IMG/VR virus record: IMGVR_UViG_3300043446_005594
Coordinates: 1-20,377 of that record
Source of the DNA: a virus
Length of the DNA stretch: 20,377 bases
Strand: one strand, 5' to 3'
Below, piece by piece: positions 1,765-20,377 of this stretch. The translations under genes and the position numbers were made by a program. Numbering within the stretch: position 1 is the stretch's first letter; every line of letters starts with the position of its first letter. The notes beneath the pieces are model-generated. The model was not told the origin of the DNA. It was given only the letters and a program-made list of their open reading frames with translations, and ran no database searches.

Positions 1765-1790
1765 AAAAAGGAGGTTTAATCCTCCTTTTT
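1765..1790. terminator. Bidirectional intrinsic terminator between convergent genes
   Basis: An inverted repeat with arms AAAAAGGAGG (1765-1774) and CCTCCTTTTT (1781-1790) encloses a 6-nt loop, giving a GC-core stem with a T-run on either strand. It starts right after the peptidase stop codon (1761-1763). It also contains the stop codon and last codons of the minus-strand ClpC-like gene, so one hairpin could end both transcripts. Confidence 0.8.
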
Positions 1791-3839
1791 CTTTCTTATT
1801 CTCTTTTTTGGTTCCGGTTTAATTATTTCTTTCAAATCAACAAATTCGTCTTCACCATTTTTCTTTATAAATAAAATATACTCTTTTTCTTCTTCAACTT
1901 CGTTAGTTAAAATCTTTTCTGAAATCAAATCCTCGATTTTATCTTGAATTGCTCTTTTGATTGGTCTTGCTCCGTATTGATCGTCAAATCCAATTTTTGC
2001 AATATAATCAATTAGACAATCTTCATAACCAATATTGTATTTCATGTTATTTACTCGAATGATTAATTTATCAACTTCTAATTTAACAATTTTATCAATA
2101 TCATTTTTTTGAAGTGAATTAAAGATTACAACCTCATCGATTCTATTTAAAAATTCTGGTGCAAAAAACTTACTTAATTCTTTTTTCAATACCTCTCGTT
2201 TATGTTCTTCTGCAATTGCGTCACTATTATTTGAGGATTTGAATCCAACACCAGTTCCAAAGTCCTGAAGTTTTTTAACCCCAATGTTAGATGTCATGAT
2301 TATCAAACAATTTTTGAAATTAATCTTTCTACCCAATCCATCAGTCATATGACCATCATCCAACATTTGAAGAAGTGTTGAGAATATGTCTTTATTTGCT
2401 TTTTCGATTTCGTCAAATAAAATAACAGAATATGGTTTATTTTTAACTTGTTCTGTTAATTGACCTCCATCATCATGACCAATATATCCTGGAGGAGAAC
2501 CAATAAGTCTAGAAATGGTATGTTTTTCTTGGTACTCACTCATATCAACACGAATTAAACTATCCTCACTTCCAAAAATCTCTTTTGCCAATTGTTTTGC
2601 TAAAAAAGTTTTACCAACACCCGTTGACCCTAAAAAGATGAATGAACCAATTGGTCTATTTGGATCTTTGATCCCAACCCTATTTCTTCTTATTGATTTT
2701 GAAATCTTTTTAACCGCATCTGACTGACCTATAATCAACTTATTTAATGTGTCTTCCAAACTAACCAAAGAATTTTTCTCATCTAAATTAATTTTGGAAA
2801 CTGGAATTTTTGTCATGTTGGACACAACCTCATAAATCAAATCTTCGGGAATTTCTCTTTTATTATTTTTAAGGTCTTCTTCAAATTTATTTTTTTCAAC
2901 CTCTAATTTTATATTAACAGTTTTTTCACGGTCTCTTAATTCCGCAGCTAACTCATATTTTTGTTTTTTAATAACTTCGGCCTTTTCTTGTTTAATTGCA
3001 ACAATCTCAGCTTTTAATTTTTCTATACTTTCTGGTAATTTTATGTCAATTTGCATTCTTGACCCAACCTCATCTAAAATATCAAAAGCCTTGTCTGGAA
3101 ATTCTCGATCAGTTATGTATCTATCGGCAAGTTCAACAAACAACCACAAAACATCATCACTATAATGAACCATGTGGTGATTTTCATACTTACCTTTACT
3201 TAACTTTAAAATTTCAAACGTCTCACTTTTCGACGAAGGGTCTACAATAATTTTTTGAAATCTTCTTTCCAACGCCCCATCTTTTTCAAAATGTTTTCTA
3301 TATTCATCTAAAGTTGTTGCACCTATACACTGTATTTCACCTCTAGATAATGCGGGTTTAAATATGTTAGAAGCATCCAAAGATCCGGAACTATTACCGG
3401 CACCTACCATAGTATGAATTTCATCAATAAAAATGATTATGTTTGGATTTGCTTGAAGTTCTTCAATAATAACTTTCATTCTTTCTTCAAATTGTCCACG
3501 GTATTTCGTACCGGCAACTATTGAATTCATTTCCAAAGAAACAATTCTTTTGTCTGCCAAATTTTTAGGACATTCACCGGAATGAATCATCATTGCCAAA
3601 CCCTCGACAATTGCTGTTTTACCAGCACCCGGTTCACCAATAATAATAGGGTTGTTTTTCTTTCTACGAGATAAAATTTGGGCGATTCTAATAATCTCTT
3701 TTTTTCTACCAATAACAGGATCAAGTTTACCTTGAGCTGCTAGCTTATTAAGGTCTTTACTAAAATTATCTAACACAGGTGTGGTGTTATCCCCCTTTTT
3801 CTTGTTTTTATCTCCATCATCAACGAATTCAATTGCCAT
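1776..3839 (-). CDS. clpC: ClpC-type double AAA+ unfoldase (Hsp100), N-domain missing
   Basis: This 687-residue ATPase unfolds proteins for a partner protease or for disaggregation. Domain D1 has Walker A GEPGAGKT (68-75), pore-loop region KYRGQFEER (112-120), Walker B IIFIDEI (135-141) and an arginine pair (192-193). A short middle region with a UVR-like stretch (about 287-306, ELAAELRDREK) is the hallmark of ClpC. D2 has Walker A GSTGVGKT (404-411), pore loop GYIG (451-454), Walker B ILFDEIEKA (473-481), sensor-1 TSN, arginine finger FLNRID (563-568) and sensor-2 GARPIKR (623-629). Residues 531-533 are VGF, in the place of the ClpC loop that docks on ClpP. Host ClpC/ClpA proteins begin with about 140 residues of Clp_N repeats. 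Here only about 25 residues precede D1, so adaptor and substrate recognition must differ. The C-terminus is a basic tail (KKRIRKKK). No clpP is present in the window. The gene diverges from the UVR-protein/dnaK genes. Confidence 0.92.
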   Translation of the reverse strand: MAIEFVDDGDKNKKKGDNTTPVLDNFSKDLNKLAAQGKLDPVIGRKKEIIRIAQILSRRKKNNPIIIGEPGAGKTAIVEGLAMMIHSGECPKNLADKRIVSLEMNSIVAGTKYRGQFEERMKVIIEELQANPNIIIFIDEIHTMVGAGNSSGSLDASNIFKPALSRGEIQCIGATTLDEYRKHFEKDGALERRFQKIIVDPSSKSETFEILKLSKGKYENHHMVHYSDDVLWLFVELADRYITDREFPDKAFDILDEVGSRMQIDIKLPESIEKLKAEIVAIKQEKAEVIKKQKYELAAELRDREKTVNIKLEVEKNKFEEDLKNNKREIPEDLIYEVVSNMTKIPVSKINLDEKNSLVSLEDTLNKLIIGQSDAVKKISKSIRRNRVGIKDPNRPIGSFIFLGSTGVGKTFLAKQLAKEIFGSEDSLIRVDMSEYQEKHTISRLIGSPPGYIGHDDGGQLTEQVKNKPYSVILFDEIEKANKDIFSTLLQMLDDGHMTDGLGRKINFKNCLIIMTSNIGVKKLQDFGTGVGFKSSNNSDAIAEEHKREVLKKELSKFFAPEFLNRIDEVVIFNSLQKNDIDKIVKLEVDKLIIRVNNMKYNIGYEDCLIDYIAKIGFDDQYGARPIKRAIQDKIEDLISEKILTNEVEEEKEYILFIKKNGEDEFVDLKEIIKPEPKKRIRKKKED

Positions 3840-3991: not shown

Positions 3992-4366
3992 ATGAATTTC
4001 AATAGTTTTGACGATTTATTTAACAAGATGTACAACTATGTAAACACATCTAGTTTTTCAGCTGATGATTGGACTGAAAAAAAATTTAAATCACCAGACG
4101 GTAAAATTACCTTTACTTATTTTTCTAGAACTAATAAGTTTGAGCCCACCCTAGATGAAATAGGTCAATTAAAAAGTGAGTTGGAAACTGCCGTAGAATC
4201 ACAAGATTTTGAACAGGCCGTAGTGTTGAGAGATAGAATTAAAAATCTAGAAAAAAATAAACAACAGATTCTTGATCTTGAAAGTAAATTAAAAGAATGT
4301 GTCAAATCACAGGATTTTGAAAAAGCGATCGAGTATAGGGATCAAATAAACAAACTAAAATCATAA
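3992..4366 (+). CDS. Small protein with two UVR motifs, candidate ClpC adaptor (McsA-like)
   Basis: The 124-residue protein has an N-terminal segment (1-55) of unknown fold, then two tandem UVR motifs: residues about 57-87 (core [18 protein letters not shown]) and about 97-123 (core [17 protein letters not shown]). Each is a short helical hairpin. UVR motifs occur in UvrB/UvrC, in the ClpC middle region and in McsA, a ClpC partner in Firmicutes. This gene is divergent from a ClpC-type unfoldase that has its own UVR-like stretch, so a partner or adaptor role is the natural inference, but it is not proven. The four-cysteine zinc fingers of McsA are absent. The gene is 2 nt upstream of dnaK and surely co-transcribed. 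Its start is preceded by an A-rich leader with no Shine-Dalgarno motif. Confidence 0.85.
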
Positions 4367-4368
4367 AA

Positions 4369-6228
4369 ATGGGAAAGATTATTGGTATTGATTTGGGTAC
4401 TACAAATTCTTGTGTTGCAGTAATGGAAGGCAAAGAACCTGTAGTTATCACAAATAGTGAAGGGAAAAGAACAACACCATCGGTTGTTGGTTTTATTAAA
4501 GACGGGGAAAGAAAGATTGGTGACCCCGCAAAACGTCAGGCTGTTACAAACCCCAAAAAAACAATTTACTCGATTAAAAGATTTATGGGGACATCATTCA
4601 CCGAATCAAAAAGTGAAATTGATAAAGTTCCATATAAAATCGTAAACGAAAAAAATTCACCTCGTGTAGACATCGATGGTAAAAACTTTTCACCACAAGA
4701 AATATCTGCTGCGATTCTTCAAAAAATGAAACAAACCGCAGAAGATTATTTAGGTCAAAGTGTTACGGAAGCCGTTATTACAGTTCCGGCTTATTTTAAC
4801 GACGCACAAAGACAAGCAACAAAAGAAGCTGGTGAAATTGCCGGACTTACAGTGAAAAGAATTATCAACGAACCAACCGCAGCCGCTCTTGCTTATGGTT
4901 TGGACAAACAATCTAAAGACATGAAAATTGTTGTGTTTGACTGTGGTGGTGGAACACATGATGTTTCTGTATTAGAGTTAGGTGGTGGTGTTTTTGAGGT
5001 ATTATCAACCGATGGTGATACACATCTTGGTGGTGACGACTTTGATCAGGCGATTATTGATTATTTGGCTAGTGAGTTCAAAAGAGAACATGGTATGGAT
5101 ATTACTCAAGATCCTATCGCACTTCAAAGATTAAAAGAAGCTGGTGAAAAAGCTAAAATTGAATTATCATCATCACCACAAACTGAAATCAACCTACCCT
5201 ACGTAACCGCCGACGCTTCTGGACCTAAACACCTTGTTATGACAATTACAAAAGCCAAGTTTGAACAATTGGTGGAACCTTTGGTCCAAAGAACAATTAA
5301 ACCCTGTGAATCAGCATTGAAAAATGCTGGGTTAAAACCAAGTGATATTGATGAAATTATTTTAGTTGGAGGTTCGACTCGTATTCCGGCAATTCAAGAT
5401 GCGGTTAAGAAATTCTTTGGTAAAGATCCATCGAAAGGTGTGAATCCAGATGAGGTGGTTGCGTTAGGAGCGGCAATTCAAGGTGGAGTTTTGGCTGGTG
5501 ATGTTACTGATGTATTATTATTAGACGTAACTCCACTTTCTTTAGGTATTGAAACTATGGGTGGAGTATTCACCAAGTTAATTCCATCAAACACCACAAT
5601 TCCAACAAAAAAATCGGAAAAATTTACAACAGCAGCCGATAACCAATCTACGGTGGAAATTCACGTTTTACAAGGTGAAAGAGCAATGGCTAAAGACAAT
5701 CGAACCATTGGTAAATTTCACTTGGATGGAATTCCACCGGCAATGAGAGGTGTTCCTCAAATTGAAGTAAGTTTTGATATTGATGCGAATGGTATTATTC
5801 ATGTTTCCGCAACAGACAAAGGTACCGGTAAACTACAATCAATTAGAATTGAATCATCTTCTGGTTTATCAAAAGAAGAAATCGAAAAAATGAAAATGGA
5901 AGCTGAAAAAAATGCCGAATCTGACAAACAATTAAAAGAAGACGCTGACACATTGAATTCTGCGGACTCACTAATTTTTAGAGTTAATAACTCACTTAAA
6001 GATTTGGAGGGCAAAATTACTGACGAAGAAAGATCTGATGTTGAATCTTCTGTAAACAAATTAAAAGAGGCTTTTGAAAGAAAAGACGTATCCGAAGTTA
6101 AAACATTAACAGAAGAGGTTAACAATAAGTTTCAAACAATAAGTCAAAAACTTTATTCTCAATCTAATAGTGATGATGAGGTTACAGATCAAGATTTCGA
6201 AAATGTTGATTACCAGGAAGTAAAATAA
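4369..6228 (+). CDS. dnaK: Chaperone protein DnaK (Hsp70), full length
   Basis: The 619-residue protein has a complete Hsp70 layout. The nucleotide-binding domain has [13 protein letters not shown] (6-18), [15 protein letters not shown] (138-152), [14 protein letters not shown] (167-180), the phosphate-2 loop [10 protein letters not shown] (191-200), [10 protein letters not shown] (217-226) and VGGSTRIP (333-340). These are followed by the interdomain linker DVLLLD (381-386), the beta substrate-binding domain (about 387-500), a helical lid, and a tail ending DYQEVK. The wording ([33 protein letters not shown]) resembles Bacteroidetes DnaK, suggesting acquisition from the host lineage. The phosphate-2 loop is unusual: most bacterial DnaK has DLGGGTFD, whereas here Cys192 replaces Leu and His197 replaces Phe. 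No dnaJ or grpE is in the window, so host co-chaperones are probably used. It is co-transcribed with the UVR protein and ends before a strong terminator. Confidence 0.97.
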
Positions 6229-11788: not shown

Positions 11789-13561
11789 ATGGCTTTAACT
11801 AAAGAACAACTTACTATTGAGTATGTAAAATGTATGAGAGATACTCCATACGCACTTCGTACATATTTACAAACTTACGATAACACAGTACAAAAGTATG
11901 TTCCATTAGAGTTATTTCCAGATCAGGTAACTCTTTTAACTGACTATGAAAACTTTGAAGAAAACATTGCGTTAAAATACCGTCAGGCTGGAGTATCTAC
12001 CGTAACCGCGGCATGGATATCTAAAAGGTTAGTTTTTGCAAAAAAAGAAAGACCAGAAAAAATTCTAATTATTGCAAACAAACTTGACACATCAATGGAG
12101 ATGGCCAATAAAATTAGATCATTTGTTGATCAATGGCCAAAATGGGTTGGTGCTGGATTTTCAGCCGATAAAAACTCACAAAGACATTATAAATTAACAA
12201 ATGGATGTGAAGTCAAGGCGGTTGCAACATCAAGAGATGCTCTTCGTGGATATACACCAACAATTCTTGTTTTTGACGAGGCAGCATTTATTGAAGCTGA
12301 CAATGATTTCTGGGCGGCTTGTATGGCATCCTTATCCACCGGTGGTAAGGTTATTGTAGTTTCCACACCCAACGGATACGATCCGATTTATTACGATGTT
12401 TACAACCAAGCAACAAAAGGTATTAACAACTTTAAGATTACCGAAATGTTTTGGTGGAGAGATCCAAGATATACGAAAGATTTATATTTGGTACCCACTG
12501 ATGACATGGTTGATTATTTGTTAAATAAAGATGAAAAAGATCATTCCCAAAATATATCATTTGAACATATTGATCCCTATGAAAGAGATTATGAAGAACT
12601 AAAAAAATATTTTCAAGAAGGGTATAAACCATGTTCATCTTGGTATGAAAAAATGGTTAAAAAACTTAAATACGATAAAAGAAAAATAAACCAAGAGTTG
12701 AATTGTGAATTTCTTGGATCAGGTGATAACGTATTTAACAACAAAGAATTAGATTATATCAAAGAAAATTTACTTCAGGAAGCGCCAACAAAAATGATGG
12801 GTAATTCTCTTTGGATTTGGAAAGACCCACAAGAAGGTCATAAATACATTATGGGAATTGACGTGTCTCGTGGTGACAGTGAAGACTTTTCATCAATTCA
12901 GATTATAGATTTTGACGAAAGAGAACAAGTTTTAGAATATGTTGGAAAAATCCCACCGGATTCATTAGCAGAAATTGCATATAAGTGGGCAATTATGTAC
13001 AACGCATTTATTGTAATTGATATAACCGGAGGAATGGGAGTTGCAACAAGTAGAAAACTTCAAGAGATAGGATATAAAAACCTATACATAGATGGAGTTG
13101 ATAGTACAAACATTTGGAATTATAATCCAAAAGCTCAAGATAAAATTCCTGGAATTAATTTTAACAATAAAAGAGTTCAAATTATTGCTGCTTTTGAAGA
13201 GTATGTCAGACATAGATTCAAGATTAGAAGTGTTCGTTTATATAACGAAATGAATACATTTGTTTATGTAAATGGAAGACCTGATCACCAGAAAGGTCAA
13301 CATGATGACTTAATAATGGCAATGTCCATGGCCATTTATGTTGGTGAAGTAGCATTTCAAAAATTAGAAAAGGTTACTCAACAGACAAAGGTTATGATTG
13401 AATCGTGGACTGTATCAAATAATGATGCGGTACAAAAACAAATTCATTTTGATCCTGTTTTACCAAATGCAAATTTGATGAATGAAAGAAGAGGATATAA
13501 CACAAACCCGTCAAAAGATGACTATATTAAGTATGGTTGGTTATTTGGCGGTAAAAGATAA
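11789..13561 (+). CDS. terL: Terminase large subunit, T4 gp17-like packaging ATPase/nuclease
   Basis: The 590-residue motor docks on the portal, pumps DNA into the prohead and cuts the concatemer. The ATPase domain has an atypical Walker A KYRQAGVSTVTA (63-74), in which the usual GKT lysine is replaced (GVST) and Arg65 precedes the loop. Walker B is ILVFDEAAF (159-167; Asp163, Glu164), and the coupling motif is VVSTPNG (190-196). The RNase H-like nuclease domain has three acidic sites: GIDVSRGDSED (356-366; Asp358), VIDITGG (409-415; Asp411) and HDDLIMA (505-511; Asp506/507). Length (T4 gp17 is 610) and domain order fit. No small terminase is recognised in the window. The ATG at 11789 follows a terminator and a TATTTATA motif; there is no Shine-Dalgarno motif. 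Confidence 0.95.
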   Translation: MALTKEQLTIEYVKCMRDTPYALRTYLQTYDNTVQKYVPLELFPDQVTLLTDYENFEENIALKYRQAGVSTVTAAWISKRLVFAKKERPEKILIIANKLDTSMEMANKIRSFVDQWPKWVGAGFSADKNSQRHYKLTNGCEVKAVATSRDALRGYTPTILVFDEAAFIEADNDFWAACMASLSTGGKVIVVSTPNGYDPIYYDVYNQATKGINNFKITEMFWWRDPRYTKDLYLVPTDDMVDYLLNKDEKDHSQNISFEHIDPYERDYEELKKYFQEGYKPCSSWYEKMVKKLKYDKRKINQELNCEFLGSGDNVFNNKELDYIKENLLQEAPTKMMGNSLWIWKDPQEGHKYIMGIDVSRGDSEDFSSIQIIDFDEREQVLEYVGKIPPDSLAEIAYKWAIMYNAFIVIDITGGMGVATSRKLQEIGYKNLYIDGVDSTNIWNYNPKAQDKIPGINFNNKRVQIIAAFEEYVRHRFKIRSVRLYNEMNTFVYVNGRPDHQKGQHDDLIMAMSMAIYVGEVAFQKLEKVTQQTKVMIESWTVSNNDAVQKQIHFDPVLPNANLMNERRGYNTNPSKDDYIKYGWLFGGKR

Positions 13562-13879: not shown

Positions 13880-16800
13880 ATGGCTTTTGTAATTATTGAT
13901 GATCCCGTTGGTGGATTATCGTCAACAGTGAGATGTGGATTGTATAATACCGCTGGAGGTTCGTATAGTACAGTTTTATCTGGACAAAAAAATAATGCTT
14001 CATCAACCTATGGTATAGTTGTTGGTGGTTATCAGAATACGGCAACTGATTCTTACGGTGTTGTAGTTGGTGGAAAATCGAATACGGCACAGATGTCAAA
14101 TTCATTAATAGTAAACGGAACATCAAATGACGTTACATTTGCATACGGAACTGTAGTCAATGGTAGTAACAACACGTCAATAAATAATTATTCTTCAGTT
14201 TTGAATGGGTCGTTTAATACCGCATCTGGCGTAAATTCATTAATTGGAAATGGTATTCGTAACTCATCTACAAACTGTAATTCATTTGTTGGTGTTGGGG
14301 TTTATAATACTTCATCAGGTAGATACTCATCAATAATAAATGGGGCTTATAATACAGTTAATGGTAATTGTTCTTTTATTAGTGGTGGTAGATCCAATAC
14401 TTTAACAGGAACTAAATCCGCAATTATAGGTGGAAGTAATATTGTAGGTAATAATAATGATACCGTTTATGTTCCATATTTAAATATTTCATTTTTACAA
14501 ACCGGAACTTCAATCAATAATCTAGGTGTTGATGTGAATGGTAATGTTGTGGCAGGAGGAGCTCAACCAGATGTTTACATTACTGGAGGTACTATTGATT
14601 ACAACACAGGCGATTTAACATTAAATAATAACAACTCAACGTCTGTTGTGATTTCGGGATTACAAGACATTTATGCAACAGGTGGTACTTTTACCACAAA
14701 TACTCTTACAATAGAAAATAATAATGGGACATCATTTGATGTTACCGGATTTACTTCGGGTGGTGGATCATATGAATCATTAACGTATATGGAACTTAAG
14801 GATATGGTAACCGGAGGTACTTTAACTCCCGGTGGATATTACTTAATTAATGATTATCAAACATGTTATGACCAACCAGATTTTGATTACAATGGAAATA
14901 CAATAACAACACCCGAAACATACCATGTTTCTGATATCGAGCAATTATTAGTTTTTGCAACATCATCAGAAAGTTTGTCCCCAACGGCTTATAGTTTAGT
15001 TTATCCAAATGATAAAATCACATATGACTATTCTTTCAGTGTTACAGAAGCAACTACAAATCCTGCAAAAGGAAGAATAACAGAAAGAATTGATGAGTAT
15101 GGAAATAGAACGGATTATGACCACAGATCAATACTATTCAAAAGATATCGATCATATTTTAGTGATGGTGAAATTACAGGTAGAATAATAGATATGAATA
15201 ATGGGAATGTTACAGGTTTGAATACGTTTTTCAGTGGTAATTTAAATGTGGGTGATGTTATTAAAATTTATTCTAATTCACCTAAATTATATGAAGTTAT
15301 CAATATTGCTTCTGATACAAACATGCAGGTTGTCGGATTCAATTATGATAATTTTTCAGATTCCGTTGGTTATGTTTGTGATTTAATGTATTCAAACAGT
15401 AGCCCTGAATCTGGATCGTTGTACTATTTTAATGATGTTCCTAGCGGTGAGGGTATTGATGATGGAGGAAATGACATGTATGATGGTGGTAACTATTTAA
15501 ATACCAATTTATTTAGTTTCATACCATATACTCATTCAAGAATGTCTGACCCCCCAGTCAATAACACAAGTCAAGCTTCTTTTGGTGATTTTGTATTTGA
15601 TGGGTCAATTATGAACGGAGACTCGTACTTTAATACGGGATCTAATTATTTTACTAACTTATATCCAGGTCTTTTTGTTATGGTTGCGTATGATGTTGCA
15701 ATTGACACTTTTTTCATTGACGGAGGTCTTGGTGCAGACGGCGGTGGAGTAATAAGCGACTATTCAAATACTTTTTCCGGATACACGGCCTATGGTAAAC
15801 TTGTGTCTGGAGCTCAAGATCCATCAGTAAACCATATCATGATTGTTAACACAATTGATAGTGGAATTACTCATACTTATTCTGTTAACACAGACGATGA
15901 TTTAGATACATTGTCTAATTTGAGTGGTGTCACAAAAATACATTATTTGTTATTTGCACTTGCTGGAGGTGTAGAACCAACATATAACCAAATAAACAGT
16001 GTGGTTGAAAGTTATCTTTTAACAATTGACGAATCTAACTTGAATAACACACTATCTAATTTAAATTCTAATTATTCGGCAATTACATCAAATCTTCCGG
16101 CAAATAATTTTTCTTATGATTCGCTAGATTATAAACAAAATAATATAACGGGAGATACAGGATTTTATAAAGAAATTCCTACTTTTAATTTTAATGGAAA
16201 TACAATTATTAATAATAATGTTGGAAACTACGCAAATACTAAAGATTGGAATGGAAATACATTTTTACTTGCAAATAACGTATTTTATGATGGTGATTAT
16301 CTAAATAACGCTTTTGGTGATTCTTGTTTTAACAACACATTCTGGGATGATTGTACGGATAATATCGTTGGAAGTAATTTCTATAATAATTACTTTGACG
16401 ATGACTTTGATAGAAACATAATAGGTTCATATTTTCACGACAATTATGTGACAAGTAATTTTCAATACAATAGAATTGGAGATAATTTTTATAATAATAC
16501 AATTGAGATTGGTTCATTTTATAGAAATAATGTAGGTAATGATTTTAGAGAAAATATTATGACAAATGATGATTTTCAGAATAATGAAATTGGAAATCAA
16601 TTTAATAATAATTTCGTTTATGGTCAGTTTTACAAAAATGATATTGGTAATGGATACAATAACAACAATATTTATGGTGAATTTTATTCAAACTTTATTA
16701 CAAATGGATATAACAACAATAATATCTATAGTCAGTTTCATGAAAACGTAATTGGTGAATATTTTGAAAACAACAATATTGGTGATCCTTTAAGTTTGGG

Positions 16801-17215
16801 GTCTTTTAACTTTATTAAAAATAATATTGGTACAAGTTTTACAAACAATAATATTTTAGGAACATTTTCGTATAATAAAATTGGAAATAATTTTTACAGC
16901 AATACTATTGGAGATGGTTTTGGTTTTGGGTATAGCACAAGTCAAGGAAATAATATTGGAAATTATTTTTATAGTAACACAATTGGTGAGTATTTTTATA
17001 ATAATGTAATTGCCGATGGTTTCTATTCAAATATAGCCTCTGATTATTTTCAATTAAATAATGTGAAAACTTCAGTATCTAGTGTTGACTTCACACCCGC
17101 ATCTCATGTTTATGGGACTTACAATTGTGAAATATTTAAAAGACAAGATAGTAACAATAGACTATCGTACTATGATGGTGCTGACGTTATACAAATTGTG
17201 AATATTGACGCATAA
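13880..17215 (+). CDS. Large tail fibre / adhesin with two repeat arrays
   Basis: The 1111-residue protein is rich in Asn, Ser, Thr, Gly and Tyr, as in phage fibres. A short N-terminus is followed by eleven 15-residue repeats (29-193) of the type Y-G-x-V-V-x-G-x-x-N-T-A, like the YadA-type trimeric adhesin head. A linker (YLNIS..GVDVNGNVV) and Gly/Thr-rich beta repeats (about 240-300) come next. A large central region (about 300-810) includes a globular part starting SYESLTYMELKDMV. Then 26 nonapeptide repeats (810-1059) form a predicted Asn-rich beta-solenoid, and a 52-residue C-terminal segment follows (TYNCEIFKRQDSNNRLSYYDG). The likely role is receptor binding on the host surface, assembled as a trimer. 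It sits between terminase and portal genes rather than with other tail genes. No chaperone domain such as peptidase S74 is visible at the C-terminus. Confidence 0.85.
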   Translation: MAFVIIDDPVGGLSSTVRCGLYNTAGGSYSTVLSGQKNNASSTYGIVVGGYQNTATDSYGVVVGGKSNTAQMSNSLIVNGTSNDVTFAYGTVVNGSNNTSINNYSSVLNGSFNTASGVNSLIGNGIRNSSTNCNSFVGVGVYNTSSGRYSSIINGAYNTVNGNCSFISGGRSNTLTGTKSAIIGGSNIVGNNNDTVYVPYLNISFLQTGTSINNLGVDVNGNVVAGGAQPDVYITGGTIDYNTGDLTLNNNNSTSVVISGLQDIYATGGTFTTNTLTIENNNGTSFDVTGFTSGGGSYESLTYMELKDMVTGGTLTPGGYYLINDYQTCYDQPDFDYNGNTITTPETYHVSDIEQLLVFATSSESLSPTAYSLVYPNDKITYDYSFSVTEATTNPAKGRITERIDEYGNRTDYDHRSILFKRYRSYFSDGEITGRIIDMNNGNVTGLNTFFSGNLNVGDVIKIYSNSPKLYEVINIASDTNMQVVGFNYDNFSDSVGYVCDLMYSNSSPESGSLYYFNDVPSGEGIDDGGNDMYDGGNYLNTNLFSFIPYTHSRMSDPPVNNTSQASFGDFVFDGSIMNGDSYFNTGSNYFTNLYPGLFVMVAYDVAIDTFFIDGGLGADGGGVISDYSNTFSGYTAYGKLVSGAQDPSVNHIMIVNTIDSGITHTYSVNTDDDLDTLSNLSGVTKIHYLLFALAGGVEPTYNQINSVVESYLLTIDESNLNNTLSNLNSNYSAITSNLPANNFSYDSLDYKQNNITGDTGFYKEIPTFNFNGNTIINNNVGNYANTKDWNGNTFLLANNVFYDGDYLNNAFGDSCFNNTFWDDCTDNIVGSNFYNNYFDDDFDRNIIGSYFHDNYVTSNFQYNRIGDNFYNNTIEIGSFYRNNVGNDFRENIMTNDDFQNNEIGNQFNNNFVYGQFYKNDIGNGYNNNNIYGEFYSNFITNGYNNNNIYSQFHENVIGEYFENNNIGDPLSLGSFNFIKNNIGTSFTNNNILGTFSYNKIGNNFYSNTIGDGFGFGYSTSQGNNIGNYFYSNTIGEYFYNNVIADGFYSNIASDYFQLNNVKTSVSSVDFTPASHVYGTYNCEIFKRQDSNNRLSYYDGADVIQIVNIDA
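13964..14458 (+). repeat. Eleven 45-bp (15-residue) YadA-head-like repeats
   Basis: Eleven consecutive 15-residue units follow the pattern [Y/N]-[S/G]-x-[V/I]-[V/I]-x-G-x-x-N-[T/N]. They diverge at the base level but keep an exact 15-residue spacing. This left-handed beta-roll type repeat is typical of trimeric adhesin heads and phage fibres. Confidence 0.85.
16307..17056 (+). repeat. Twenty-six 27-bp (9-residue) Asn-rich solenoid repeats
   Basis: The 250 residues parse into 26 units of consensus N-x-I-G-x-x-F-x-x. Twenty-two are exactly 9 residues, two are 10, and two have 7-residue insertions (units 18 and 22). Ile and Phe/Tyr would point inward and Asn would ladder along a beta-solenoid. 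In the first half IG units alternate with non-IG units, so a coil may be 18 residues. Confidence 0.85.
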
Positions 17216-17269: not shown

Positions 17270-19084
17270 ATGGAAGAAAATAAAAAATTAACGGTTTGGC
17301 AACGATTATCTAAAACTTTTGGACCTAATTCGTTGTTAGGTCAAGACATACCAACTTATCGATTTGATAAGAAAGAATTATTAAAAACTAGAGATAAAAA
17401 TCAATACGAAAAAGAATTACTCCAGTCTCAACAATCTTTATATTTGTCTAATCAGTGGGCAAAAATTGAAAGTAATTTATATACTCAAGCGATTTATTAC
17501 GAACCAACAAGATTGGCTTCTTTTTACGATTATGAATCTATGGAATTTACACCAGAGATTTCAACTGCTTTAGATATTTACGCTGAAGAATCGACAACAC
17601 CAAATGAAGATGGTCATGTTTTGTCAATCTATTCTGAATCAAAAAGAATAAAGGCCATATTGGCCGATTTATTTAACAACACATTAGATATTAATACAAA
17701 CTTACAGATGTGGATTCGAAACACTTGTAAGTATGGTGATAACTTTGTTTACATGAAGTTAGATCCGGAAAAAGGTATCATCGGAGCGGTTCAATTACCA
17801 AATATCGAAATTGAAAGATTAGAAAGAGGTATGAAACCAAAAACTCAAAACACTGAAGTAAAAACTGATGAGAAAGGGTTGAAGTTTAATTGGAAAGAAA
17901 AAAATATGGAGTTCAATAGCTGGGAAGTTGCACACTTTAGACTATTAGGTGATGATAGGAAACTTCCTTACGGAACATCAATGTTAGAAAAAGCTCGTCG
18001 TATTTGGAAACAATTAGTATTAGCAGAAGACGCAATGTTAATTTACCGTACATCAAGAGCCCCAGAAAGACGTGTATTTAAAGTTTTTGTTGGTAATATG
18101 GATGATAAGGATGTTGAAGCGTACGTACAAAGAGTTGCAAACAAATTTAAAAGAGATCAAATTGTTGATAATAAAACTGGAAATGTAGATTTGAGATTCA
18201 ATCAAATGGCAGTTGACCAAGATTACTTTATTCCTGTTCGTGATGCCGCTCAAACAATGCCAATTGAGACATTACCTGGTGGTACAAATCTATCTGAAAT
18301 TGCAGATATTGAATATATCCAAAAGAAACTTGTTACCGCATTACGTATACCAAAGGCGTATTTAGGTTTTGAAGAACCGGTTGGAGATGGTAAAAACTTA
18401 TCATTGTTGGATATTAGATTTGCAAGAACAATTAATAGAATTCAAAAAAATATTTTATCGGAACTTAATAAAATTGCAATAGTTCATTTATTCTTATTAG
18501 GATTCGAAGATGAATTACAAAACTTCACATTAGGATTAAACAATCCATCTAAACAGGCAGATTTATTAATGGTGGATGTTTGGAAAGAAAAAGTCTTATT
18601 ATACAAAGATTTAGTCTCTGAAATTCCTAACTCAATTGCACCGACATCAGCAACTTGGGCTAAAAAACATATTTTTGGATTCTCTGATGAAGATATTAAA
18701 CTTGACGTTCAAAGAATGAGAATGGAAAGAGCGGTAGCCGCTGAATTGGCAAACACCGCAACAATAATTTCACATACAGGTATGTTTGATCAAATTGACA
18801 AGTTATACAAGACTGTATCTGGAGCAACTGAAACAGCTCCTGCAGAAGGAGGTGAGGAAGGATTAGGAGGTCTTGGAGGACCGCCATCTCCACCATCAGG
18901 ACCACCATCTCCACCACCAGGACCACCACCAGGACCAGAACCGGGTGGACCAGCGGGAGGTCTTCCAGAAAATAAAATTAATTTAGAAAAATTGATTTTA
19001 GAATCTGAAGAGGATGATTTTTTCCAAAGAAATGTATCTATTGGGGAAATGGAAGAAGAATTGTTGCGAATATTGAAAGATTAA
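17270..19084 (+). CDS. Portal protein, T4 gp20-like
   Basis: The 604-residue protein would form the dodecameric ring at the head vertex that receives the packaging motor and later the tail. Recognisable portal features include the N-terminal helix and wing region MEFTPEISTALDIYAEES (about 87-104), RNTCKYGDNFVYMKLD, the RTSRAPERRVFKVFVGN strand segment, and a long crown/stem helix block (EIEYIQ-like residues through RIPKAYLGFEEPVGDGKNL, then DIRFARTINRIQKNILSEL). Length is close to T4 gp20 (524) plus an extra C-terminal Gly/Pro-rich linker (GGLGGPPSPPSGPPSPPPG) and an acidic helical tail ending EEELLRILKD. The linker is an unusual extension. The ATG at 17270 is the first in this frame after the fibre stop, with a 54-bp gap holding a TATTTAA. 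Confidence 0.9.
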   Translation: MEENKKLTVWQRLSKTFGPNSLLGQDIPTYRFDKKELLKTRDKNQYEKELLQSQQSLYLSNQWAKIESNLYTQAIYYEPTRLASFYDYESMEFTPEISTALDIYAEESTTPNEDGHVLSIYSESKRIKAILADLFNNTLDINTNLQMWIRNTCKYGDNFVYMKLDPEKGIIGAVQLPNIEIERLERGMKPKTQNTEVKTDEKGLKFNWKEKNMEFNSWEVAHFRLLGDDRKLPYGTSMLEKARRIWKQLVLAEDAMLIYRTSRAPERRVFKVFVGNMDDKDVEAYVQRVANKFKRDQIVDNKTGNVDLRFNQMAVDQDYFIPVRDAAQTMPIETLPGGTNLSEIADIEYIQKKLVTALRIPKAYLGFEEPVGDGKNLSLLDIRFARTINRIQKNILSELNKIAIVHLFLLGFEDELQNFTLGLNNPSKQADLLMVDVWKEKVLLYKDLVSEIPNSIAPTSATWAKKHIFGFSDEDIKLDVQRMRMERAVAAELANTATIISHTGMFDQIDKLYKTVSGATETAPAEGGEEGLGGLGGPPSPPSGPPSPPPGPPPGPEPGGPAGGLPENKINLEKLILESEEDDFFQRNVSIGEMEEELLRILKD

Positions 19085-19107: not shown

Positions 19108-19824
19108 ATGAAATTCGGTCTTTTAAAAAGTAAAATAGAAAAATATTTGGTAGAGTCTTACATGAATAAAGACTTTAAAGATACATTGTTTGTTTTTAAC
19201 GAACTTGTTCTTAAAAATAAAAACATGTCAAAACTATTTTATTTGTATGACGAGTTATCCGCAAACAAATCTTTGAACGAATCTGTTGCCAACGATTACA
19301 TAAATGAATCTATTGTTATTTACGAAAATACAATTAACAAAATTTCAAAAAAACAACTTGACGAAATTAAATTGTGGGTTGGTCACGTTCAAACCAAAAA
19401 TGAATATACAGAAATAGATAATTTATTTTCTTCAAATATTTTAACATTAGAAAATAAAATTCAAAGTAGAAAAGTTATTTTAGAAAATTTAAAAAAATCA
19501 ACTGAAAAAGAAGATTTGGTTGAAAATGTAAGTTTAAATACCCTGGTTAAAGTGGCAAACAAAACTGTAAATAATTTTCTAAATGAATTAAATGAAACCA
19601 GTAAAAAATCTTTACTTAAAGTATTATCTGAAGATGATAATAAATTACAAAATAAGTATGAAATACTAAAAGAAACTGTTGTCGAAAAATTAGAAGATTT
19701 AAAATTAACAGAATCAGAGTCTGATGTGATAAAAAGAATCGACGAAACAATTCAAAAAGTTTCAAACGAAGAATACAATAAAATTGCATACTTCAAATTA
19801 TTTGAATTGAATAAAAATATTTAA
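19108..19824 (+). CDS. Unrecognised helical protein downstream of the portal
   Basis: The 238-residue protein is almost wholly helical and rich in Lys, Glu, Asn and Leu, with coiled-coil-like stretches (about 70-140 and 165-238). There is no signal peptide, catalytic motif or cysteine. In T4-like phages the gene after the portal often encodes a prohead core or protease, but the serine protease motif of gp21 is not visible, so at most a scaffold/core role can be suggested. Its stop overlaps by 3 bp the stop of the convergent bS21 gene, and no terminator hairpin separates them. Confidence 0.75.
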   Translation: MKFGLLKSKIEKYLVESYMNKDFKDTLFVFNELVLKNKNMSKLFYLYDELSANKSLNESVANDYINESIVIYENTINKISKKQLDEIKLWVGHVQTKNEYTEIDNLFSSNILTLENKIQSRKVILENLKKSTEKEDLVENVSLNTLVKVANKTVNNFLNELNETSKKSLLKVLSEDDNKLQNKYEILKETVVEKLEDLKLTESESDVIKRIDETIQKVSNEEYNKIAYFKLFELNKNI

Positions 19825-20006
19825 TTCTGATTGAATTTTTTCTGAACGTAAATTGCCTTTTTAGTTTCTTGTCTTTTAATAACAGATTTTTTTGTAAATT
19901 CTTTTCTGTCATTTAAAATAGAATTTTGTCTGGTCTTAATAACCTTACTTTTGAGTTCTTTAATCGCTCTTTCGATGTCGTTCTTTTTTACTTTTACAAT
20001 TAACAT
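19821..20006 (-). CDS. rpsU: Ribosomal protein bS21 homologue, Bacteroidetes type
   Basis: The 61-residue basic protein starts MLIVKVKKNDIERAIKELK and ends with SVIKRQETKKAIYVQKKF, closely matching Bacteroidetes bS21 in length and layout: an N-terminal beta/helix segment, a basic middle, and a C-terminal helix with Tyr53. bS21 sits on the 30S platform near the 3' end of 16S rRNA and the anti-Shine-Dalgarno. In Flavobacterium the equivalent tyrosine (recalled as Tyr54) is reported to help hide that sequence. A phage copy could replace the host protein in ribosomes during infection. The start at 20006 is chosen because an upstream in-frame ATG would add 23 unrelated residues. It is convergent with the helical protein and diverges from the 20094 gene. 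TAAATTTG on the minus strand (20042-20049) is a weak -7 candidate without a clear -33. Confidence 0.88.
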   Translation of the reverse strand: MLIVKVKKNDIERAIKELKSKVIKTRQNSILNDRKEFTKKSVIKRQETKKAIYVQKKFNQN

Positions 20007-20093
20007 ATTGATTTTTGATGTTTTATATTTGATATATACTTCAAATTTATGTAATATTTCTAAAAATAAACGCATTTACTATGAAAAATTTTT

Positions 20094-20377
20094 ATGAAAA
20101 AGGGCAAAACCTCAAAAATCAATGGTTTTAGATCATCAAAAGTATCTTATGGAACCGTAGACTCCAAAGAATTTAAATCTTTATACTTAAACATCCAAAC
20201 CTGGGTAGAACCAAAAAAAGAAGTCGATAACTGGCAAAGATTAGTATTAAACACAAATCGATCAATTAAACATTCTGTTTATAACAATGTTGATAAAACC
20301 TTATTTGATGACAAGTTCATAGTAGATATGGACTTAAGAACAAGTGGTTTACAACTAAAAAAGAAATCTTTTATGAA
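20094..20377 (+). CDS. Unrecognised protein, 3'-truncated by the window edge
   Basis: The frame is open from ATG 20094 to the window end (94 codons visible). The sequence begins with a basic stretch (MKKGKTSKINGFRSSK), then a likely globular region (EFKSLYLNIQTWVEPKKE, DNWQRLVLNTNRSIKHSVY, DDKFIVDMDLRTSGLQL). An upstream ATG at 20081 is in another frame and stops after 16 codons. The basic N-terminus hints at nucleic-acid or structural contact but I recognise no family. The 87-bp gap to the divergent bS21 gene contains TATATTTG (20024-20031), a -7-like match with no well-spaced -33. Confidence 0.75.
   Translation, partial: MKKGKTSKINGFRSSKVSYGTVDSKEFKSLYLNIQTWVEPKKEVDNWQRLVLNTNRSIKHSVYNNVDKTLFDDKFIVDMDLRTSGLQLKKKSFM

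Follow-up and report, generated by a model that had tools for sequence, protein, structure and literature searches.

Phages that encode their own copy of ribosomal protein bS21 are known from Bacteroidetes hosts (Chen et al. 2022, PMC9723584). Their genomes of 293-331 kb fall into clades a-e; bS21 lies on the reverse strand among the TerL, portal, protease, and capsid genes and is co-expressed with structural genes; all 61 phage copies carry an aromatic residue at the position of Tyr54; several positions diverge in the N-terminal helix region; and the authors proposed that the protein enters host ribosomes and confers a preference for phage messages. In F. johnsoniae, whose ribosome is represented by 7JIL (PMC9723584), bS21 Tyr54 stacks on A1534 of 16S rRNA (PMC9723584, PMC9976891). 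The F. johnsoniae rpsU gene carries an extended Shine-Dalgarno sequence (SD), and since loss of bS21 or the Y54A mutation raises rpsU'-gfp expression, bS21 represses its own synthesis (McNutt et al. 2023, PMC9976891); McNutt et al. speculated that such autoregulation benefits the host during or after phage attack. A phage-encoded bS21 is also found in Pelagibacter phage HTVC008M, which unlike the phage described here infects a non-Bacteroidetes host, and that protein was shown to enter E. coli 70S ribosomes (Mizuno et al. 2019, as cited in PMC9723584 and PMC9976891).

The window analyzed here is a whole virus contig of 20,377 bases, and a bS21 gene (rpsU homologue) of 61 codons plus stop occupies the complement of 19821-20006, with its ATG at 20006 and its TAA at 19823-19821; the listed reading frame can be extended upstream to 20075, and the ATG at 20006 is the start in every homologue. 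The encoded protein, MLIVKVKKNDIERAIKELKSKVIKTRQNSILNDRKEFTKKSVIKRQETKKAIYVQKKFNQN, passes the Ribosomal_S21 cut-off (PF01165, E 3.5e-8, 33.5 bits versus 27), its residues 4-55 covering positions 2-54 of the 55 in the profile; among PDB sequences, nothing matches at E up to 1 besides two bS21 chains, 9i5v_9 (1.7e-6) and 7jil_z (6.4e-6). Together with the tree placement described below, these matches bear out the original prediction of a phage bS21 of the Bacteroidetes (Bacteroidia) type. An AF2 model (pLDDT 82) predicts helices at residues 11-35 and 40-58, for which Foldseek gave no PDB match, a small two-helix protein offering little signal. The gene is present in at least 80 IMG/VR loci (80 kept of 210 relatives), and with a dN/dS of 0.05-0.15 between the window copy and 11 relatives it is under purifying selection.

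We found no essential difference between this locus and the phages of Chen et al. 2022: the bS21 is of Bacteroidetes type with an aromatic residue at the Tyr54 position, its gene, flanked by two hypothetical genes, is on the opposite strand within the TerL/portal/head region, Clp and chaperone genes are present, and the relatives of the window phage have genomes of about 290 kb, compared with around 300 kb. The window is syntenic with a 290,887-bp relative, where bS21 again follows the portal gene on the opposite strand. Specifically, the plus strand encodes a T4-like terminase large subunit (11789-13561; PF03237, E 2.5e-13; phrog_2) and a T4-like portal protein (Gp20, 17270-19084; PF07230, E 4.7e-77), and between them lies a repetitive, Asn-rich protein of 1111 residues (13880-17215) that matches nothing in Pfam or PHROG and is possibly a fibre or adhesin. 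Beyond bS21, the next gene (20094-20377, plus strand, KKGKTSKINGF...) is divergent, runs off the window, and is conserved in relatives whether or not they have bS21. Pfam domain searches also identified an M20 peptidase gene, a Clp-type double-AAA ATPase (1776-3839, minus strand), and a protein with two UvrB/UvrC (UVR) motifs (3992-4366, plus strand), the latter two lying side by side and resembling a ClpC/McsA-like adaptor pair; a full-length phage-encoded DnaK (HSP70) follows at 4369-6228 (E 7e-261) and is absent from the corresponding place in the syntenic relative.

The original prediction had also equated Tyr53 of the phage protein (codon TAC, 19850-19848, minus strand) with Flavobacterium Tyr54, and when we aligned it with host bS21, using as Flavobacterium reference a sequence (L162) identical to the 7jil_z stretch, the two residues fell in one column. 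That column is aromatic in all 47 distinct phage bS21s (42 Tyr, 3 Phe, and 2 His) and is Tyr in 54 of 54 Flavobacterium-like hosts; in a wider host sample drawn from the GTDB phylum (68 distinct bS21 proteins), 44 have Arg instead. The window and F. johnsoniae proteins belong to the same family, with about 43% identity and a shared C-terminal context KA.Y.Q, but differ in having V-I for F-D at 23-24, R for G27, Q for T28, E for A37, and K for P41, and in lacking a residue at N11. Some of these differences are phage-wide and nearly absent in hosts, namely F/Y23-D/E24 to V-I (V-Y in one copy), G27 to R/K, T/V/I28 to Q, and A37 to E.

In our tree the two sets of phage bS21s form a single clade inside Bacteroidia (support 98/93), nested within a 49-row group that includes Tyr-bearing hosts (100/99); the phage proteins are placed next to Flavobacteriales-like hosts with weak inner support, the alignment having few columns and the inner forks being weak. 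As the phage bS21s are one clade, shared descent would explain the phage-wide residues without repeated selection. A host-like bS21 on one viral contig (L257) was excluded as nearly equal to the host gene of L348. Two Bacteroidota hosts (L356 and L357) have, as the phage copies do, R or K for G27 and no rpsU SD; lineages such as these could be donors or hosts of phage bS21.

Phage and Flavobacterium-type host genes differ sharply in their leaders. The extended SD that McNutt et al. 2023 describe upstream of the rpsU start is absent from the window bS21 gene, whose A-rich leader (20007-20031, minus strand) has an anti-SD duplex energy of +1.6 kcal/mol, whereas all 25 unique Flavobacterium-type host rpsU leaders, drawn from 80 Flavobacterium-like host loci, pair with the 16S anti-SD at -17.5 kcal/mol or stronger. 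Among phage leaders, the median duplex energy is +1.6 for the window's clade (31 unique leaders) and -0.5 for other phages (8 leaders); none of these 39 reaches -6 kcal/mol or below, the same as for shuffled leaders, and the host and phage energies are separated by a rank test at p 2e-11. The absence of SD motifs from phage genes in general, claimed at the outset, stands as well: every gene in the window has at most 5 nt of anti-SD complement, and the syntenic 290,887-bp relative has no SD signal genome-wide, either by anti-SD complement count (291 genes, equal to the shuffled expectation) or by duplex energies (322 unique leaders). The original prediction was right about the identity of the protein, its tyrosine, and the SD-less leaders, but overlooked the autoregulatory SD of host rpsU and its absence from the phage copies.

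The phage bS21 genes have a specific promoter-like element upstream, TTTGAAGTATATATCAAATATA in the window (20024-20045, minus strand), with its core TATATATCAA at 20038-20029. The motif TATNTATCAA is found in all 31 unique phage bS21 upstream regions, 24-37 nt ahead of the start codon, against a chance rate of 0.0015 per 45 nt (about 0.15%) estimated from a relative's genome, and it is absent from all seven related loci that have no adjacent bS21; because it is missing where bS21 is missing, gene and element appear to come and go together. Of 8 relatives, 5 contain a single exact copy of the 14-mer TATATATCAATATA, which in the 290-kb pair falls in the bS21 upstream region. By contrast AAAATAAAC (20063-20071, plus strand), which belongs to the region upstream of the divergent gene itself, is kept in most bS21-less loci and so is not part of the bS21 unit.

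We infer from its position and distribution that the element would be a bS21-specific promoter. We considered an RNA element held at constant spacing from the start codon but rejected it: the element's position relative to the ATG ranges between -24 and -37, whereas the start of the divergent gene stays at a nearly fixed distance, an arrangement that a promoter fits better. That a general late promoter alone accounts for the element was partly rejected, since the phage-wide motif TATTTATaaaaAAAA (TATTTAT..., 90 sites in the 290-kb relative) reaches only p ~0.02-0.07 at most bS21 elements; those of L020 and L075 match it well (TATTTATCAA), most other copies are a weaker variant, and the bS21 element may be a variant of this motif class. 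Bacteroidetes promoters have a TAnnTTTG box. Separately, in the 290,887-bp relative (L242-L256), ATATTTAT is found upstream of 68 of 323 genes versus 6.5 expected, typically about 20 nt before the start and including TerL and the bS21 neighbor, and a second upstream class, TATCTTTGT, fits the TAnnTTTG box; the two classes may be late and early promoters.

On its other side, bS21 adjoins a convergent gene (19108-19824, plus strand) for a protein of 238 residues with an all-helical model (AF2 pLDDT 83); a fold search gave no PDB match, only uncharacterized phage proteins, and PHROGs gave no consistent family. The two genes are adjacent in 69 of 76 relatives, and in 68 of these 69 loci their stop codons overlap in the identical four nucleotides TTAA (19821-19824 in the window). 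Matched by position and behavior rather than sequence, the neighbor is probably the bS21_CN family of Chen et al. 2022, who reported it to be absent from bS21-less outgroups (PMC9723584). If so, the seven related loci that keep the neighbor without an adjacent bS21 (L111, L112, L118, L119, L120, L121, and L126) are exceptions, although these are short fragments and bS21 could lie elsewhere in the genomes concerned. A strong terminator-like hairpin (AACCCCTC...GAGGGGTTTTTT) is predicted in place of bS21 in all seven, and in the four whose sequence was read through, the intrinsic-terminator-like hairpin is followed by the same divergent gene.

How might these features fit together? The reading we favor, and consider rather more probable than its negation, is that the phage protein replaces host bS21 and keeps ribosomes SD-blind while its gene escapes rpsU feedback. 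Specifically, i) a T4-like phage of a Bacteroidia host would encode a bS21 that replaces the host protein on 30S subunits late in infection; ii) the C-terminal helix and aromatic residue of the phage protein would hold the 16S 3′ tail, so that ribosomes carrying it would stay blind to SDs and be suited to SD-less phage messages; iii) the phage-specific residues of helix 1 and the loop may tune mRNA choice; and iv) the phage gene, with its own promoter-like element and no SD, would be spared the SD-dependent feedback that restrains rpsU in Flavobacterium-type hosts, while its product could shut host rpsU down. The link to feedback is that host rpsU is autoregulated through its SD and the phage leader has none, so the phage gene should escape; and since the aromatic residue at 54 is kept in 47 of 47 phage copies, the phage protein could still repress host rpsU. 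For the original suggestion that phage bS21 might maintain or shift translation toward phage leaders, "maintain" appears to fit better than "shift", because the anti-SD-blocking aromatic is kept in all phage copies and the phage leaders are A-rich and SD-less like those of the host. We would put forward only tentatively the stronger version in which phage bS21 acts as a one-way switch, triggering repression of host rpsU while its own gene, SD-less and driven by a separate promoter, escapes that repression, so that host bS21 is progressively replaced.

Several points count against escape. Nearly all phage genes lack an SD anyway; with the phage bS21s being one clade, the absence of the SD may go back to one event or be an inherited default instead of a product of repeated selection; and among the 24 host sequences of the phylum sample in which position 54 is Tyr or His, a very strong rpsU SD (-17 kcal/mol or below) is present in 13 and no strong SD in the other 11, so the argument holds only for an SD-bearing host.

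A competing explanation, to which we give real but lesser credence, is that of Chen et al. 2022: phage bS21 would enter ribosomes, where its altered N-terminal half would select phage over host messages, the rpsU feedback being irrelevant. The phage-specific residues do fall in helix 1 and the following loop, near the mRNA path according to Chen et al. (PMC9723584), and are fixed across phage groups; however, they may only reflect the shared descent of one clade, and the phage leaders are SD-less and A-rich, as reported for hosts, with no obvious feature by which messages could be selected. Unlikely, in our judgment, is a simple top-up, in which the many new or repaired 30S subunits needed for infection draw on the phage for a limiting, loosely bound protein and specificity is unchanged: retention of the Tyr54 contact, strong purifying selection on bS21, and the DnaK and Clp-type ATPase genes in the window (as part of a general proteostasis role) would all fit, but the fixed changes G27 to R/K, T28 to Q, and A37 to E are left unexplained. 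Finally, a non-ribosomal role, with bS21 packaged in the virion or binding phage RNA or protein during head assembly, might be read from the fixed convergent pair that the gene forms with its neighbor (68/69), located among the head genes immediately downstream of portal, but is very improbable given that the conserved residues are ribosome contacts, Tyr54 above all, and that the neighbor is kept without adjacent bS21 in seven relatives.

The observation that started this analysis is correct and the phenomenon already published: bS21, Tyr54 conservation, the reverse-strand site by terminase and portal, and the idea of ribosome entry with its Tyr54 argument are all in Chen et al. 2022. Promoters and leaders are not mentioned in the main text of that paper (PMC9723584), phage leaders are not reported in the phage-related passages of McNutt et al. 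2023 (PMC9976891), and a search of open-license literature found no later paper on phage bS21 leaders or promoters. Beyond the papers searched are i) the contrast between host SD and its absence in phage; ii) the bS21-specific upstream element; iii) the TTAA stop overlap in 68 of 69 loci; and iv) the single phage clade inside Bacteroidia; the natural bS21-less loci are a further useful addition.

An SD present in the host gene and absent from the phage gene, with Tyr54 kept, suggests the reverse of the McNutt et al. idea, namely that the phage may both exploit and escape the rpsU feedback.
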